Assembly: GCA_017961295.1 (NCBI GenBank)
Contig: JAGCXL010000038.1
Span: 1 to 51,125, forward strand
Origin: Elusimicrobiaceae bacterium
GTDB taxonomy: Bacteria; Elusimicrobiota; Elusimicrobia; Elusimicrobiales; Elusimicrobiaceae
Length of the DNA: 51,125 nt
Direction of reading: 5' to 3'
Shown here: positions 3,488-51,125 of the stretch, piece after piece
Numbering within the stretch: the first letter of the stretch is position 1
Layout: every line of letters starts with the position of its first letter
The notes under the pieces: generated by a model
Database searches by the model: none
What the model saw: only the letters and a program-made list of their open reading frames with translations
Told to the model about the DNA's origin: nothing
Made by a program: the position numbers and the translations under genes

Positions 3488-6049
3488 ATGGAAAAACCCA
3501 CCTTAACCCCTTTAATGAAACAATACTTTGCCATCCGTGAGCAAAACCCGGACATTGTGCTTTTTTTCCGTTTGGGTGATTTTTACGAAATGTTTGACGA
3601 GCAAGCCCGCGAAATTAGCGGCCTGTTGGGGTTGACGCTTACGGCGCGTAACGGGGTGCCCATGTGCGGGATTCCTTACCATGCAGCTAACACGTATATC
3701 ACCCGTTTACTAGCCGCCGGTAAAAAGATTGGAATTTGCGAACAAACCAGCTCAGTGATGGATAAAGACACCAAATTGTTTGAGCGTAAAATCGTACGCG
3801 TGATTACCCCGGGAACTCTGGTGGAAGATAGCCTGTTGGACGCCAATCAAGCCAATTATCTGTTAGCTTTGGATGTAACCTCTGCAGGGTGGGCGTTGGC
3901 GTGCGTAGAAGTGTCTACCGGAGAGTTTTGGGTCAATCAAAACGATAAAGACCCGTCTTTAATGGGCTTAGCTGCCGCGTTAGCGGCTATAAATCCGTCG
4001 GAAATTATCGGTACGCGCGAAACCTTGGAGGCCTTGCGGCAAAAAGTAATAATCCCGGCTTCTTTAACGCTTACACCTATTGCCGCGTTTAACGGGGAAT
4101 ATATTTTGCCGGCTGCGTGGCCTGCGCTTGAGGCCTGGGGGGATAAAAAACGTGCGCTAGCGTGTGCGCTTCAGGTAATGAAGTATATTGAGGCTACCGA
4201 CCCGAGTGTGCAAGCTACGCTGGTTCCTGCCTATCGGGAACTAAAAGAGTGTTTGCAAATTGATGAAAATGCGGTATCTTCTTTGGAACTGGTAGAAGGA
4301 CAAGACGGAGGGCGAGCCGGAAGTTTATGGGCCTTTTTGGATAGAACGAAAACTGCTATCGGTAGTCGCAAACTCAAAGAATGGATCTTACACCCGCTTT
4401 TAGATGTAAACGGAATTATTCAACGTCAAAATTGCGTAGAAGCGTTTGTAAAAAATCAAGCAGCGCTGGCAGATTTAAGTGTATTATTGGAAACGATTGC
4501 CGATGTGCAGCGCATTATGACCCGTACGTCCGCTGGAACGGCTTCTCCGCGAGACGTATCGGGGCTACGTCGTTCTCTTTTAAATGTAGATGCTCTGGAA
4601 CAATGGTTTGAGAGTTACCCGCAGGTAGCGCCCTACTTGAAAGAACAATTTGAGGCAGTTAAACCCAGTTTAAAAGAAATGGCGCGCCTTTTGTACGATG
4701 CTATTAATGAGGCACCGCCTCTCCATATTTCGGATGGGGATGTAATTCGCTCGGGTTATAATAGTGAACTGGATGAGCTACGTTCTTTAAAAACCAATTC
4801 CAACCAAACGCTGCAACAAATTTGCGAGCGCGAGCGTGCCAAAACCGGAATTAGTACCCTCAAAGTGGGGGTTAATTCTGTCTATGGGTACTATTTTGAA
4901 GTCACCAAATCGCATTTGTCTAAAGTCCCCTACGGGTATGTGCGCAAGCAAACATTAGTAAACGCGGAACGTTTTATTACCGAAGAACTTAAACAATTAG
5001 AAGATAAAATCATGCACGCGGAACAAAAAATTCTGCGCTTGGAATCTCATTTATTTAATCAAATCCGTTTAACGCTTTCACAGCATATAGAAGCTTTTAA
5101 AACATTTGCGCAGGTAGTATCCGAACTAGATGTATATGAGGCATTGGCGTTGACCGCCCTGAAAGGAAATTATACTAAGCCCGTTGTAGATGAAAGCACC
5201 GAGCTTTATTATGAAAACGGACGTCATCCGCTTGTGGAACAAACTTTGCCGGCGGGCAGTTTTGTACCGAACAGTTTGCATTTAGGTACGCCGCAAAACC
5301 AAATTATGCTCATTACCGGCCCGAATATGGGAGGAAAAAGCGTATATTTAAAGCAGACGGCTATTATCGTAATTTTAGCGCAAATGGGCAGTTTTGTGCC
5401 GGCACAAAATGCACGTATCGGCCTGGTGGACCGAATTATGACACGTATTGGAGCGCACGATGCGCTTAGCCGCGGGAACTCCACCTTTATGGTAGAAATG
5501 AACGAAACCGCTCACATTTTAGCTTCCCTTACGCCGCGCAGCTTAATCTTATTAGATGAAGTGGGGCGCGGAACCTCTACCTTTGACGGGATTTCTATTG
5601 CCTGGGCCATTGTGGAATATCTCTACAAACCTAAAGGCGGGGCCAAAGTGATTTTTGCTACGCACTATTTTGAACTGATTGACTTGGAAAATAAATACGA
5701 ACGCATAAAAAATTTCCATGTAGAAGCCCAAGAATATAAAGATGCCCAAGGGCACAGCAAACTGGCATTTTTGTACCAGATTAAACCGGGTGCGGCGGAC
5801 CAATCGTATGGGATTCACGTGGCGGAGTTGGCAGGATTGCCGGCCGCTTGCACCTTGCGTGCACGTAAAGTACTTAAAGATTTAGAAGCCAAAAAAGGGG
5901 CCAAAATTTCCGTAAAAGAACGGGATATGGTCAAAGATTTATTTTCTTCCCCAATCGTGGAAGAAATTAAAATGGCGGATCCGGATAAACTGACCCCGTT
6001 AGCGGCCTTACAACTAATTTGTGAGTGGAAAAAACGAATCAATGAGTAA
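3488..6049 (+). CDS. mutS: DNA mismatch repair protein MutS
   Basis: The 853-residue length is typical of MutS1. The N-terminal mismatch-recognition domain carries the Phe-X-Glu motif (FYE, residues 32-34, in RLGDFYEMF). The C-terminal ABC-type ATPase has Walker A GPNMGGKS (611-618), the LILLDEVGRGTSTFDG Walker B/signature region and the downstream ATHYFEL segment. MutS dimers bind mismatches and small loops and recruit MutL in an ATP-dependent way. The gene appears leaderless. mutL overlaps its 3' end by 8 bp, indicating coupling. All motifs expected for an active protein are present. Confidence 0.98.
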   Translation: MEKPTLTPLMKQYFAIREQNPDIVLFFRLGDFYEMFDEQAREISGLLGLTLTARNGVPMCGIPYHAANTYITRLLAAGKKIGICEQTSSVMDKDTKLFERKIVRVITPGTLVEDSLLDANQANYLLALDVTSAGWALACVEVSTGEFWVNQNDKDPSLMGLAAALAAINPSEIIGTRETLEALRQKVIIPASLTLTPIAAFNGEYILPAAWPALEAWGDKKRALACALQVMKYIEATDPSVQATLVPAYRELKECLQIDENAVSSLELVEGQDGGRAGSLWAFLDRTKTAIGSRKLKEWILHPLLDVNGIIQRQNCVEAFVKNQAALADLSVLLETIADVQRIMTRTSAGTASPRDVSGLRRSLLNVDALEQWFESYPQVAPYLKEQFEAVKPSLKEMARLLYDAINEAPPLHISDGDVIRSGYNSELDELRSLKTNSNQTLQQICERERAKTGISTLKVGVNSVYGYYFEVTKSHLSKVPYGYVRKQTLVNAERFITEELKQLEDKIMHAEQKILRLESHLFNQIRLTLSQHIEAFKTFAQVVSELDVYEALALTALKGNYTKPVVDESTELYYENGRHPLVEQTLPAGSFVPNSLHLGTPQNQIMLITGPNMGGKSVYLKQTAIIVILAQMGSFVPAQNARIGLVDRIMTRIGAHDALSRGNSTFMVEMNETAHILASLTPRSLILLDEVGRGTSTFDGISIAWAIVEYLYKPKGGAKVIFATHYFELIDLENKYERIKNFHVEAQEYKDAQGHSKLAFLYQIKPGAADQSYGIHVAELAGLPAACTLRARKVLKDLEAKKGAKISVKERDMVKDLFSSPIVEEIKMADPDKLTPLAALQLICEWKKRINE

Positions 6050-7925
6050 TATTCATGTATTAGACGAAAAAACAGCCGGACAGATCGCCGCAGGCGAGGT
6101 AATTGAACGCCCCGCAGGGGTGCTTAAAGAGCTGCTAGAAAACGCCATAGATGCCGGGGCTACTTCGATACACATTGATATTGAAGGAGCCGGCCGCTCC
6201 TTAATCCGCGTCAATGATAACGGCCGGGGTATGGACGAGCAAGATTTAAAGCTAAGTGTCCTGCGCCATGCTACCAGCAAAATTACGGTTTTTGATGACT
6301 TGGGTTCTTTGGACACGTTTGGTTTTCGCGGAGAGGCCCTTTATTCGGTGGCGGCTGTTTCGCAGATGTCTATCACCAGTTGCACTGCCGGGGGAAATGG
6401 GAATCGTTTGGAAGTACACGGCGGTAAAGTCGTAGCGCAAAGCCCGGCCCCTGCGGTTGAAGGTACTACGGTGGAAATACGGGATTTATTTTACAATGTG
6501 CCGGCCCGGCTTAAGTTTCTAAAAAGCGATTCTTACGAGCGTGCTTGTTTATTAAAAGTAATTGAAGAAAGCATGCTGGCCAATTTACAGGTGGGTTACC
6601 ATGTAAATATCAATGGTAGAAATGTATATGATTTGCCAGCGGAAAGCGGTTCGTTTAAGGAGTCTGTCATCAATAGGGCCCGTCAAATTATGGGGCCCGA
6701 AGTGGCGGGTAGCCTGGTATTTAAATCTTTTGAAGGCCAAGGGCTTAAATTGTTTATCACGCAAACTGACAAACTGGTGCGTGTGCGGGATTTACAATAT
6801 ATATTTGTAAACCGACGTCCTATAGACAGTAAGACAATTCAGCAAGCTGTTTACAAAGCGTATCAAAATGTACGCGGACAAAATTCTCACCCGGCTTTTT
6901 TAATTTACATGACGCTTGAACCGTCTGCGTTTGATGTAAATATTCATCCACAAAAACGAGACGTGCGTTTTGAAGATGAACATTTTGTGTTTGCTAGCAT
7001 ACTTAAACATGCGGGGGAAACTATTTTTGAAAGTGCCACCCCTGTGGAAGTATCAACAGATAAAGAGCCTCTTTCTTTGGACTTACCCAAGCCGGCTCAA
7101 CCGGCAGCCGAAAAACTTTTTGTTTCTAAACCGATGGAAACATTTGCGGCTCAGTTTGCGGCCAAACCGGCCGAAAAACCGGCCGCGGTTACCCCTAAAC
7201 CGGTTAAAAAGACAGATTTATTTGCACCGGTCTCGCAAGAATTACGCGAAACGGAAGAACCGGCGGAATATGTGGCCCGCCCTGTTGAGCCGGTAGAAAA
7301 GCCGGCGGTCCAACCACAGGCGTTGCCGGAAGAAGGCCCGCAGTGGTATCACGGTCCGTATCACTACATAGGGCAGTTGCAACGCAGTTATTTGCTATTT
7401 GAAAACCCGCAAGGCTTGGTAATTATTGACCAACATGCAGCCCAGGAACGTGTACTTTTTGAGCATTATTTGGACTTATTTGAAAAACAACAAGTGCAAG
7501 TGCAAAAACTTCTTTTCCCGGTTCATGTAGATTTACCGCCCTCTAATGTGGAAAGTTTACTTTCTTGGAAAGAGTGGCTGCAAAAAGCCGGGTTTGAATT
7601 AGAGCCGTTTTCAGCCCGCACCGTGCTTGTTAAAACAATGCCCAATGTGGTCCGCTTTAAAGAAGACGATATGAAGGCGTTTATTGTTTCCTTGGCGGAC
7701 GTGGTGGGGGATCCTACCAAATCTACAGATGCATTAAAGCGCAAAATGATTGCCATGCTTGCTTGCAAACGGGCCATCAAGGCGCACGACGCCATTACCG
7801 CGCAAGAGGCAGAGGTCCTCTTGGAAAACATGAAAAAATGCAAGGACGGCATGCATTGCCCACACGGCCGCCCGGTGCTGGCTCAGCTTTCTATTGAGCA
7901 GATTGGAAAACTGTTTGGCCGATAG
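6042..7925 (+). CDS. mutL: DNA mismatch repair endonuclease MutL
   Basis: This 627-residue GHKL ATPase has the N-terminal ATP site (ENAIDAGA, NDNGRGM, GFRGEAL). A Pro/Ala/Lys-rich linker (roughly residues 345-440) leads to a C-terminal dimerisation/endonuclease domain. DQHAAQERVLFE (463-474) matches the metal-dependent endonuclease motif DQHA-x2-E-x4-E. ACKRAIKA and CPHGRP (606-611) complete the zinc/metal site. MutL therefore probably nicks the daughter strand itself, as in bacteria lacking MutH. The ATG at 6042 (MSNIHVLDEKTA) was chosen over an upstream in-frame ATG at 6021 inside mutS because family members begin close to this point. It overlaps mutS by 8 bp. Confidence 0.97.
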   Translation: MSNIHVLDEKTAGQIAAGEVIERPAGVLKELLENAIDAGATSIHIDIEGAGRSLIRVNDNGRGMDEQDLKLSVLRHATSKITVFDDLGSLDTFGFRGEALYSVAAVSQMSITSCTAGGNGNRLEVHGGKVVAQSPAPAVEGTTVEIRDLFYNVPARLKFLKSDSYERACLLKVIEESMLANLQVGYHVNINGRNVYDLPAESGSFKESVINRARQIMGPEVAGSLVFKSFEGQGLKLFITQTDKLVRVRDLQYIFVNRRPIDSKTIQQAVYKAYQNVRGQNSHPAFLIYMTLEPSAFDVNIHPQKRDVRFEDEHFVFASILKHAGETIFESATPVEVSTDKEPLSLDLPKPAQPAAEKLFVSKPMETFAAQFAAKPAEKPAAVTPKPVKKTDLFAPVSQELRETEEPAEYVARPVEPVEKPAVQPQALPEEGPQWYHGPYHYIGQLQRSYLLFENPQGLVIIDQHAAQERVLFEHYLDLFEKQQVQVQKLLFPVHVDLPPSNVESLLSWKEWLQKAGFELEPFSARTVLVKTMPNVVRFKEDDMKAFIVSLADVVGDPTKSTDALKRKMIAMLACKRAIKAHDAITAQEAEVLLENMKKCKDGMHCPHGRPVLAQLSIEQIGKLFGR

Positions 7926-17200: not shown

Positions 17201-17323
17201 TTGACTTGTTTTTTTTTGATACAGTTTGCTATGACGGATACGGGGGGATATGTTGCTCTGTGCCAAAACGCTGTATAAAAGATTTTGGAGTGTTTGAACG
17301 GTATTTGTAAAGGAGCATGTAAC
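17201..17323 (+). promoter_or_regulatory. Pilin promoter/leader module, copy A (9-T tract)
   Basis: TTGACT at 17201-17206, a tract of 9 T at 17209-17217, and an extended -10-like TGATACAGT ending at 17225. The spacer between hexamers is only 13 bp. The next ~95 bp up to the start codon are conserved with copies B (27944-28069) and C (50820-50937), including CTATGACGG, GGGGGATAT, TATAAAAGATTTT and AAAGGAG. Confidence 0.65.
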
Positions 17324-17851
17324 ATGAAAAAAACAAGCTATAAGCAGGGCTTTACCCTTATTGAATTATTGGTAGTTGTTTTAATCATTGGTGTCTTGGT
17401 GACGGTAGCGTTGCCGCGGTATCAAAAAGCTGTAGATAAGACGCACGTAAGCGAATTGTTTACAATAGCCAAAAACATAAAAACACAGCAAGAGGTGTTT
17501 TTTTTAGCCAATGGGTATTATGCCGCCGATTGTGACGAATTGGGAGCCGATTTGCCGCATGGATTTGAAGAGGATACTTCTAATCCGGGCAGTTATATCT
17601 TTCAAAGAGGCAGTTATCTTTATGTTCTTAAGTGTCAGAACGATCAGACCCGAGTTATGGCAAATGTCCAAACGGAAAATTTCTTTGCGAGTATAGAAAT
17701 GTATTTTGACCAGTTTTCTGATGAGGAAGTTAAATCTTCCAACAAAGGCAAACAAGGCAAAGCTTTTTGCTATGGCAAAAACACGCAACGCGGGTTAAAT
17801 GTTTGTAAATCGTTCGGAAAAGAATTTCAAGACAACGTATATTGGTTGTGA
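17324..17851 (+). CDS. Type IV pilin-like protein
   Basis: This 175-residue protein begins MKKTSYKQG, the prepilin leader, followed by FTLIELLVVVLIIGVLV. That is the class III signal: Gly at -1, Phe at +1, Glu at +5, and a hydrophobic helix that both anchors and packs the filament. The helix continues into ALPRYQKAVDK. A globular domain with four to five cysteines and many aromatics follows. It would be processed by a PilD-type peptidase at the membrane. The ATG at 17324 (AGGAG at 8 nt) was chosen over an in-frame ATG at 17285. It is convergent with uppP and is the most divergent of the three pilins here. Whether it is a major pilin, minor pilin or pseudopilin cannot be told. Confidence 0.9.
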   Translation: MKKTSYKQGFTLIELLVVVLIIGVLVTVALPRYQKAVDKTHVSELFTIAKNIKTQQEVFFLANGYYAADCDELGADLPHGFEEDTSNPGSYIFQRGSYLYVLKCQNDQTRVMANVQTENFFASIEMYFDQFSDEEVKSSNKGKQGKAFCYGKNTQRGLNVCKSFGKEFQDNVYWL

Positions 17852-27943: not shown

Positions 27944-28069
27944 TTTACTTGTTTTTTTTTTTTTGATACAGTTTGCTATGGCGGACACGAGGGGATATAT
28001 CCTTGTTGTTAAAATACCGTATAAAAGGTTTTAGAGCGTTTAAATGGTGTCTAAAACAGGAGTAATTGT
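27944..28069 (+). promoter_or_regulatory. Pilin promoter/leader module, copy B (13-T tract)
   Basis: TTTACT at 27944-27949, 13 T at 27952-27964, and TGATACAGT with the -10-like hexamer at 27967-27972. The spacer is 17 bp, the sigma-70 optimum. The following leader shares GCTATGGCGG, GGGGATAT, TATAAAAGGTTTT and CAGGAG with copies A and C. Confidence 0.65.
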
Positions 28070-29425
28070 ATGCATAAAAACAAGGGTTTTACCCTGATAG
28101 AATTATTAGTAGTAATACTTGTTATTGCGGTACTTGTCGCAGTAGCGTTACCGCAATACAAGCACGCGGTATTAAAAAGCCGCTTTAGTGGCGTAATGCC
28201 CCTGGCCAAAGCCGTGGCGGACGCGCAAGAAGTGTACTACTTGGGCTCCGGCGAATATGCTACCACGCAAGACAAGTTGGATATTGTATTCCCAACCACG
28301 GTGGAACGCAGTAGTTTGTCTATCAGCCAAGAAGAAAAGCACAATTTTGTCATGGCCAGCCGCAGTGATGTACCCAACGTACACTATATTAGGTATCAGG
28401 AGCACAGCCAAAACTTCCCCCGTGAGATACACTGTGAAGCCAAGGCCGATGACGAACAAGCTAACTGGCTGTGTGAAAAAGGTTTAAACGGCGAAAAGAT
28501 AGGGGGCAGCATCACCGATGGCTACACTACCTATGTGTTGGAAGGAACGGGGAACGGCAACCTGGGTAAAACGTATTACGGTACAAGTAACTTAGTTTTA
28601 GGTGAAGGAGATGTATGTATAGCCACAGGTGCCTATAATTGCTATGGTGGTTATTATGAAAACGCTTCTTGTTCAGTGGAAACGCCATCCGGTTATGCTA
28701 TATATCCTTGTGCACATAGTACTTTTACGGCTGAAGGTTTATGCAAAGGCGGGGATCACAATAAGTTAGATTGTTCTTATAGCTTATTTAATAATTCTAC
28801 TTGCAAAGGTGGAAATGGAGACAATCCATGTAATAATAGTATTTTTGAAAATAATTCTGTGTGTGAGTCTGGGACTCGTAGTGGTTGTACAGATGCTTCG
28901 TTCACTAATTCCACTTGTTATGCCAAAGGGACGGGCGGCGCTAGTAATGGCCGTTCCTGCGGTGGTACCAAATCTACCTACGATAACTCCACCTGCTATA
29001 ATCAATCCAACAATATGTGGGGGTGCGGCCAGGCCACCTATACCAACGGGTCTAAATGTTACAGTAACGAAAACGGCGGCTGTGGGGGAAGTTCTACGTT
29101 TTCGGGGGCGTCCTCTTGTTATGGTAACGGGGCAAATGGGTGCGGCTCCGGCATTTTTGACGGTGGTTCCAATTGTTATGGGGATGCCGCTTTATCTTGT
29201 GGGAAGGCCACATTTTCTAACGGTTCTGTTTGTCATGCCAATGTTCCCGGTGCTTGTACCCAAAAAGAGAATGGGACGAACGATAGTAGTTATGATAGTA
29301 CCTCTTACTGTTCCGGGGCATATTGCCCAGCGGGTACACCTGCGGGAAATGCGGAACAAGGGGGTATTTATGCGGGCGAATGTTGGGACGGACACGGCAA
29401 TCACGGCTCCCAATACTGTAGTTAA
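28070..29425 (+). CDS. Pilin-like protein with long cysteine-rich repeat domain
   Basis: This 451-residue protein has a six-residue prepilin leader (MHKNKG), then FTLIELLVVILVIAVLV and ALPQYKHAVLKSRF, the class III pilin stem. Residues about 45-175 resemble other pilin-like proteins. From residue ~183 to ~419 there are about eleven imperfect repeats of roughly 20 residues. The pattern is C-x(7-13)-C-x(3-5)-[F/Y]-x(2)-[N/G/A]-[S/T] and then the next C, rich in Gly, Asn and Ser. The protein has 28 cysteines, 24 of them in the repeats. A disulfide-stacked solenoid displayed on a pilus-like stalk is a reasonable guess. I recognise no named domain. Ribosome binding site AGGAG. Confidence 0.88.
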   Translation: MHKNKGFTLIELLVVILVIAVLVAVALPQYKHAVLKSRFSGVMPLAKAVADAQEVYYLGSGEYATTQDKLDIVFPTTVERSSLSISQEEKHNFVMASRSDVPNVHYIRYQEHSQNFPREIHCEAKADDEQANWLCEKGLNGEKIGGSITDGYTTYVLEGTGNGNLGKTYYGTSNLVLGEGDVCIATGAYNCYGGYYENASCSVETPSGYAIYPCAHSTFTAEGLCKGGDHNKLDCSYSLFNNSTCKGGNGDNPCNNSIFENNSVCESGTRSGCTDASFTNSTCYAKGTGGASNGRSCGGTKSTYDNSTCYNQSNNMWGCGQATYTNGSKCYSNENGGCGGSSTFSGASSCYGNGANGCGSGIFDGGSNCYGDAALSCGKATFSNGSVCHANVPGACTQKENGTNDSSYDSTSYCSGAYCPAGTPAGNAEQGGIYAGECWDGHGNHGSQYCS

Positions 29426-50819: not shown

Positions 50820-50937
50820 TTGACTCGTTTTTTTTTTGATACAGTTTCCAGTGACGGCAATGGGGGGATATGGCCCGGTTGTTAAGTCGTTATATAAAAG
50901 ATTTTAAAGCATTTAACGGTGCCATAAAGGAGAAACA
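50820..50937 (+). promoter_or_regulatory. Pilin promoter/leader module, copy C (10-T tract)
   Basis: TTGACT at 50820-50825, 10 T at 50828-50837, TGATACAGT with the hexamer at 50840-50845, giving a 14-bp spacer. The leader shares GTGACGG, GGGGGATATG, TATAAAAGATTTT and AAAGGAG with copies A and B. Confidence 0.65.
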
Positions 50938-51125
50938 ATGAGTCAAGAATTTAACAGTTGTCATCCTGAACTTGATTCAGGATCTGGTTGTTTTAATAAA
51001 GGTTTCACATTATTAGAACTTTTAATAGCGGTTATTATTATAGCCGTACTTGTGTTAGTGGCCTGGCCTCAGTATAAGCACGCGGTGTTAAAGAGCCGGT
51101 ATAGTGCATTATTGCCGGTAGCGCA
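50938..51125 (+). CDS. Pilin-like protein with palindrome in leader, 3' end outside window
   Basis: 62 residues are visible. A long leader of 22 residues ends in NKG, then FTLLELLIAVIIIAVLVLVAWPQYKHAVLKSRYSALLPVA, a class III pilin stem close to that of the gene at 28070 (shared PQYKHAVLKSR). Leader residues 9-16 (HPELDSGS) are encoded by an 8-bp stem palindrome at 50963-50983. The ATG at 50938 has AAGGAG at 6-7 nt; no start codon occurs nearer the cleavage site. The globular part lies beyond the window. Confidence 0.88.
   Translation, partial: MSQEFNSCHPELDSGSGCFNKGFTLLELLIAVIIIAVLVLVAWPQYKHAVLKSRYSALLPVA
50963..50983. repeat. Palindromic element inside the pilin leader coding sequence
   Basis: ATCCTGAA, loop CTTGA, TTCAGGAT: a perfect 8-bp stem inside the reading frame. 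The encoded peptide HPELDSGS is the translation of a palindrome type that recurs in the genomes of several bacteria. Confidence 0.7.

Follow-up and report, generated by a model that had tools for sequence, protein, structure and literature searches.

Putative promoters with poly-T spacers of variable length precede multigene families of predicted surface proteins in gut Elusimicrobiaceae

The contig JAGCXL010000038.1 (51,125 nucleotides, analysed at its full length and referred to here as the window) comes from a metagenome-assembled genome (MAG) of an Elusimicrobiaceae bacterium and carries three pilin-like genes, each preceded by a run of T's lying between the −35 and −10 hexamers of a putative promoter. 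On comparative grounds we accept these sites as members of a family of sigma-70-type promoters with a spacing-tuned and length-labile T spacer, located in front of predicted surface-protein genes, and the same architecture is present in most of 66 genomes searched from its genus, that of Candidatus Avelusimicrobium. A preliminary description of the window had proposed such a promoter family, and this proposal is borne out, with the T tract lying in the spacer, its length differing among near-identical copies, and pilin-like genes being served. Phase variation appears to be the likeliest use of a spacer of this type.

The promoter family in the window and its source genome

Among 131 copies the −10 hexamer has a T at positions 1 and 6 in 131/131 and an A at position 2 in 130/131, with position 5 free, and the TG of the extended −10 is formed from the last T of the tract and the G that follows it. 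The sites contain the TGN plus TANNNT of a sigma-70 extended −10 together with a TTGAC-like −35, the modal spacer of 16 bp lying within the 16–18 bp of such promoters, and the motif found throughout the genus is TTGAC-N3-T12-TGNTANNNT. Within the window the pattern TTTTTTGATACAGTTT, with up to three mismatches allowed, has seven matches (three of them exact) compared to 2.0 ± 1.4 in shuffled sequences, and the T-tract element is thus present above chance. The three tracts reported previously (T9, T13 and T10, with spacers of 13, 17 and 14 bp) are exact on a base-by-base check, and the suggested link to pilin-like genes is strengthened by the presence of PF07963 in the gene behind each of the three copies (Table 1). 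This family describes the N-methylation motif of a prepilin-like N-terminus and all three genes exceed its curated cut-off; no pilin body domain in Pfam matched any of the three at E≤0.001, and it may be that minor pilins or pseudopilins are encoded.

The source MAG is fragmentary (897 kb, 66.7% complete) and contains 32 PF07963 genes. A T tract is present at 13 of the 30 whose surroundings were read, with lengths of 9, 10, 10, 11, 11, 11, 12 (five copies), 13 and 13. A genome-wide pattern search, as advocated in the preliminary description, recovered five exact occurrences of TTTTTTTGATACAGT in the whole MAG, every one before a pilin-like gene, and none with the reversed control. Two copies of the same class lie outside the window (T12 and T13), and a sister class is represented by eight copies with GCTACGAT, GCTACCCT, GCTACACT or GCTAGCCT as the −10. 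The lengths differ even between closely similar copies in this one MAG, as L001 and window copy 3 (L004) have T12 and T10, respectively, with downstream flanks that are 97% identical.

Two other roles for the element were considered and rejected. No GC hairpin directly upstream of the tract was seen by eye in the copies read, as would be expected of an intrinsic terminator, and an Rfam scan for structured RNA within the leaders gave two tRNAs only in the window. We also note a dispersed palindromic repeat, CATCCTGAACTTGATTCAGGATC, located in frame within the leader peptide (CHPELDSGS) of pilin-like genes at window positions 50952-50990 and at L001, L079, L084 and L086, which recalls the insertion of palindromic elements into coding frames.

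Table 1. Promoter copies and associated genes in the window
Feature	Position	Strand	Details
Promoter copy 1	17201..17225	+	TTGACT 17201-17206, T9 17209-17217, GA, TACAGT 17220-17225; spacer 13 bp; extended −10 TGATACAGT; exact motif match
Pilin-like gene 1, downstream of copy 1	17324..17851	+	175 aa; PF07963 E=4.8e-08; AAAGGAG ribosome-binding site upstream
Promoter copy 2	27944..27972	+	TTTACT 27944-27949, T13 27952-27964, GA, TACAGT 27967-27972; spacer 17 bp; extended −10 TGATACAGT; exact motif match
Pilin-like gene 2, downstream of copy 2	28070..29425	+	451 aa; PF07963 E=1.2e-08
Promoter copy 3 (L004)	50820..50845	+	TTGACT 50820-50825, T10 50828-50837, GA, TACAGT 50840-50845; spacer 14 bp; extended −10 TGATACAGT; exact motif match
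Pilin-like gene 3, downstream of copy 3	50938..51125	+	Incomplete at contig end; PF07963 E=2.3e-08 over the 62 aa present
MutS and MutL genes	3488..7925	+	Pfam domains

Distribution among relatives and a second gene family

Several patterns emerge from the relatives. First, when 84,980 species genomes were scanned with a strict version of the motif, 41 stretches matched, and every informatively titled record is from Elusimicrobia, including Candidatus Avelusimicrobium excrementipullorum; judged by contig name and coordinates, the records correspond to genomes of this genus. Secondly, the richest genomes (G019, G043, G045, G050 and G062) contain the architecture about 40–80 times each, and it accounts for nearly all of their long T runs: 70 of 73 runs of at least 9 T's in G062 and 40 of 45 in G050 lie inside the motif, as do all runs of at least 10 in both of these genomes and 52 of 53 such runs in G043. 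A general promoter of the lineage was rejected, as long T runs are almost confined to these genes. Thirdly, the tracts are closely associated with pilin-like genes, preceding them in 64 of the 66 cases read in G019 and G043 (63 by pattern and L184 by eye), and in 59 of 60 in G045, G050 and G062 (56 by pattern and L309, L313 and L317 by eye), where the loci read were partly picked for unusual tract lengths. The number of pilin-like genes per genome ranges from 22 to at least 105.

A second, unrelated family carries the same type of promoter in the sister genus g5. In G076, G086 and G088 the promoter has the form TTGACT(T)G, T8 to T14, TGATA and is mostly found ahead of secreted-looking cysteine-rich proteins (L247-L252, L257-L264 and L266) that repeat a YK..G.C.T..R.CC motif and match nothing in Pfam; the family is large, and each gene is under a T-tract promoter. 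The same promoter lies ahead of pilins in G083 and at one G088 copy (L265). The surface or secreted location of all of these products is predicted, from the N-methylation motif or from a signal-peptide-like N-terminus. Because two unrelated families are served, the arrangement is not predicted by a pilin-specific regulator, and the use of one homopolymer promoter on two unrelated multigene families hints at a contingency role more strongly than any other observation here.

Some aspects of genome organization deserve mention. T-tract promoters show a strand bias in contigs as deposited (62 versus 20 in G019, and 60 versus 13 in G062). G083 and G085 of the sister genus, which are perhaps close relatives, have equal MutS scores and 25 and 1 T-tract promoters, respectively, a contrast pointing to rapid gain or loss of these promoters. 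The synteny of pilin-like gene 2 with a spore-photoproduct-lyase-like gene was also pursued, although a pilin lies behind that gene in some species only (e.g. G001, G019, G030 and G038) and the locus does not provide a simple orthologue series of lengths.

Spacer length

In a listing of G001-G024, unselected for length, T12 is by far the commonest tract (100 copies, ∼72%), with 22 copies of T11, nine of T13 and seven of other lengths (n=138). The modal spacer in the relatives, measured from TTGACN to TANNNT, is accordingly 16 bp and not 17. The two −35 arrangements of the sister genus are informative in this regard, as genomes with TTGAC-TTG before the tract (G076 and G083) have a modal T12 and those with TTGAC-TG (G086 and G088) a modal T13, such that both arrangements have a modal spacer of 16 bp; the length shift has a Mann-Whitney p=2e-5, which overstates independence, copies within a genome being related. 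As T13 occurs where one −35-side base is missing, a 16-bp spacer is kept and the shift conserves promoter geometry. This compensation points to 16 bp as the favoured spacing, and the optimum is probably 16–17 bp. The preliminary description had regarded the 17-bp window copy as the only one with optimal spacing, a view that is doubtful given the genus-wide mode of T12 (16 bp) and the outcome of the compensation test.

Purity and lability of the T tract

The tract is better preserved than the hexamers around it. When three substitutions were allowed anywhere in the motif, G019 and G045 gave 147 matches in which the −35 drifts (TTGAC, TTGCA, TTGCG, TTGAT), as does the −10, whereas the T's are interrupted in only about three, two of which are probably chance matches; this search is blind to other tract lengths. 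Among likely true copies in the G001-G024 listing there is one interrupted tract.

Tract length is much less constant than purity, and deviant lengths of T7-T10 and T13-T15 occur in front of genes that look intact as well as between near-identical copies. For example, L101 of G062 (T13) and L117 of G045 (T12) differ in tract length but are otherwise identical over 38 bp upstream and 815 bp downstream (853 bp), apparently a recently recombined block within loci that are about 92% identical. T10 is found in two species at matching flanks (L062 and L133). Length differs in 6 of 24 pairs that are at least 92% alike and in 24–32% of pairs that are 75–92% alike, although there are few close pairs and some loci were chosen by length. 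Because the differing fraction is not lower at high flank identity, length memory would fade fast relative to substitution, with lengths drawn back to T12; we regard this as suggestive, not firm. As separate observations, the ∼850 bp shared by L101 and L117, which include the pilin-like gene, suggest a recent exchange of pilins between species, and at L215 of G001, behind the lyase-like gene, a T11 tract is followed closely by an NN gap in the scaffold (T11GANNTTGATAAAG), perhaps because the assembler could not resolve a mixture of tract lengths in the sample.

Putative transcription starts and an inverted repeat

In 51 copies an ATG lies 6 nt (48 copies) or 5 nt (three copies) past the −10 hexamer without a ribosome-binding sequence, and there are none at 7–12 nt. 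From this fixed distance we infer that transcription starts at the start codon, and some pilin-like mRNAs look to be leaderless; the loci concerned are L034, L098-L136 and L157-L176 (in G043, G045 and G062). In the remaining copies, including those in the window, a leader is present and usually contains a ribosome-binding site. A promoter located farther upstream, from which the tract would be transcribed as U's, was rejected, since conservation falls upstream of the −35 region in many close pairs.

In several clades the −10 and part of the T tract form one arm of an inverted repeat, the other arm of which either overlaps the first codons or sits immediately upstream of the ribosome-binding site, and the bases of the two arms covary. 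Over 61 apparently leaderless copies, the arms agree at 463 of 488 positions compared to at most 455 in 5000 shuffles, a comparison that is inflated by relatedness. The 5′ arm is inside the −10 and would thus be excluded from RNA started at this promoter; the repeat may be an operator-like dyad, a DNA hairpin, or the product of quasi-palindrome correction by template switching. It is found at L157-L176 in G043, at L141, L186 and L187 in G019, and in the window at 17218-17225 with CTGTATAAAAG near 17272, although it is weak in the window copies.

Proposed mechanism and alternatives

We consider it probable, with moderate confidence, that slippage in the T spacer shifts the distance between −35 and −10 and hence the transcription of individual surface-protein genes. 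The promoter would be of sigma-70 type, with a TTGAC-like −35, an extended −10 and a pure T spacer that usually has 12 T's, and slipped-strand replication would add or remove T's, moving the hexamers apart or together and so raising or lowering transcription of that single gene. The active state would probably be at about 16–17 bp (T12–T13), such that in the window the copies with T9 and T10 would have little or no activity and the one with T13 full or almost full activity, and with dozens of loci a stochastic and combinatorial surface repertoire could result. Length-dependent expression, reversible switching within a population and adaptive value are inferred components of this proposal. We are evenly divided over the wider suggestion that this family of gut bacteria maintains a large promoter-borne contingency system, in which dozens of dispersed surface-protein genes per genome, from two unrelated families and in two genera, each have their own T12-spacer promoter tuned to 16 bp, with purity selected, length varied by slippage, and mismatch-repair genes kept.

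Several observations weigh against slippage-driven switching. The genomes are consensus MAGs, one per species, and the evidence is sequence only; the copies are related by descent, and the statistics overstate their independence. Most relatives have at least 70% of copies at one length, and in G013 all 14 listed copies are alike; with about 72% of copies sharing a length, the consensus genomes present a default plus deviants and no mixed on/off state. An extended −10 may itself soften the dependence on spacing. Several pilin-rich species have few or no T tracts, and twenty pilins from tract-poor species have mostly ordinary-looking promoters with mixed and T-rich spacers; the tract is therefore not required for pilin use, and is an elaboration that varies by species. 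Finally, a MutS domain is present in all 66 genus genomes and both MutS and MutL are encoded in the window, by which loss of mismatch repair is rejected as a cause, and slippage need not be fast.

A less probable but tenable explanation is that the tract is a fixed structural spacer, stiff and slightly overtwisted, and a constitutive part of a promoter class for surface-protein genes, with selection holding it at about T12 and length variants representing mutational noise. The sharp T12 mode and extreme purity are explained by it as well as by slippage, and it accommodates the compensation that holds 16 bp; moreover, the pilin-linked loci L044, L051 and L065 with mixed-sequence spacers have 17, 17 and 18 bp, and the A-tract helical repeat of about 10 bp would suit an optimum one base under the usual 17. 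However, relatives have mixed-sequence spacers in front of members of the same gene family, which indicates that transcription does not need the tract, and a fixed spacer does not account for frequent deviants (T7-T10 and T13-T15) at seemingly intact genes and between near-identical copies, or for the use of the same tract by a second unrelated surface family.

We think it unlikely that the tract and −10 are conserved as one arm of a dyad, for a regulator or a DNA hairpin, rather than for spacing or switching. Such an operator is favoured by the inverted repeats of several clades, in which the arm at the −10 covaries with the one at the start codon or ribosome-binding site, but many copies, among them the window copies and others with long leaders, have a weak second arm or none, the arm usually covers only about 6 of the 12 T's, and spacing compensation is not predicted. 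It is more doubtful still, to the point of being very improbable, that the length differences are homopolymer sequencing or assembly errors. All of the data are indeed from consensus MAGs, and the L215 scaffold has a gap at its tract; errors would not, however, tie the modal length to the number of −35-side bases, and neither the T10 shared by two species at matching flanks nor differences of 3–4 bases, such as T9 and T13 in one MAG, are accounted for in this way.

Comparison with known systems

To our knowledge, promoters with a homopolymer spacer have been described for a small number of genes in pathogens and mycoplasmas, whereas here one architecture makes up most of the long T runs across entire genomes of uncultured commensals from one animal-gut family, and two unrelated families of predicted surface proteins are served by it. 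A search confined to the open-access literature found neither phase variation nor this promoter described for Elusimicrobiota. Should tract length set expression, the surface-protein expression states of gut Elusimicrobiota could be read from any set of metagenome reads, and the reason why small genomes retain 22 to more than 100 pilin-like genes would become testable.

Two systems share parts of the arrangement. In Bordetella the fim2 and fim3 genes are switched singly via a promoter-region homopolymer, a poly-C tract that sets the distance to an activator site, although the products are chaperone-usher pili and not N-methyl pilins. Sigma-70 promoters of Campylobacter and Helicobacter likewise have T-rich DNA directly 5′ of an (extended) −10, but the stretches are imperfect, there is no conserved −35, and the promoters serve general housekeeping; here the tract is pure, TTGAC is conserved, and the promoters are confined to surface-protein genes.

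Parallels are also found in three further systems. The vlp genes of Mycoplasma hyorhinis each have a promoter poly-A tract (PMC10502178), and thus resemble the present family in having an A/T homopolymer promoter in every member of a surface multigene family, with vlp genes switching independently; they differ in being few, clustered lipoprotein genes of a mollicute in which switching is demonstrated, compared to dispersed pilin-like or cysteine-rich genes in Elusimicrobiaceae with MutS and MutL. The porA and fetA genes of Neisseria meningitidis have a homopolymer between −35 and −10 in a surface-protein promoter, the length of which sets the spacing, and switching is established (PMC2791445; for porA spacing, PMC7864442). 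In Treponema pallidum a homopolymer likewise separates −35 from −10 in the promoter of tp0126, which encodes an OmpW-like protein; one spacer length is optimal, and reporters show length-dependent expression (PMC7864442). Both of the latter use poly-G, at one or a few genes in Neisseria, where switching and its effect on expression are demonstrated, and at a single gene assayed by reporters in Treponema, whereas the Elusimicrobiaceae tracts are poly-T and lie at dozens of paralogues per genome with a modal spacer of 16 bp. The features of the porA type that are found here are a homopolymer between −35 and −10 and a length that varies among copies and alters the spacing, and the T-spacer family appears to be a candidate, rather than a proven, member of this type, departing from it in no feature tested. 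It is distinct from the known systems in its scale, its T tract, the two protein families served, its apparently leaderless copies, and its phylum.
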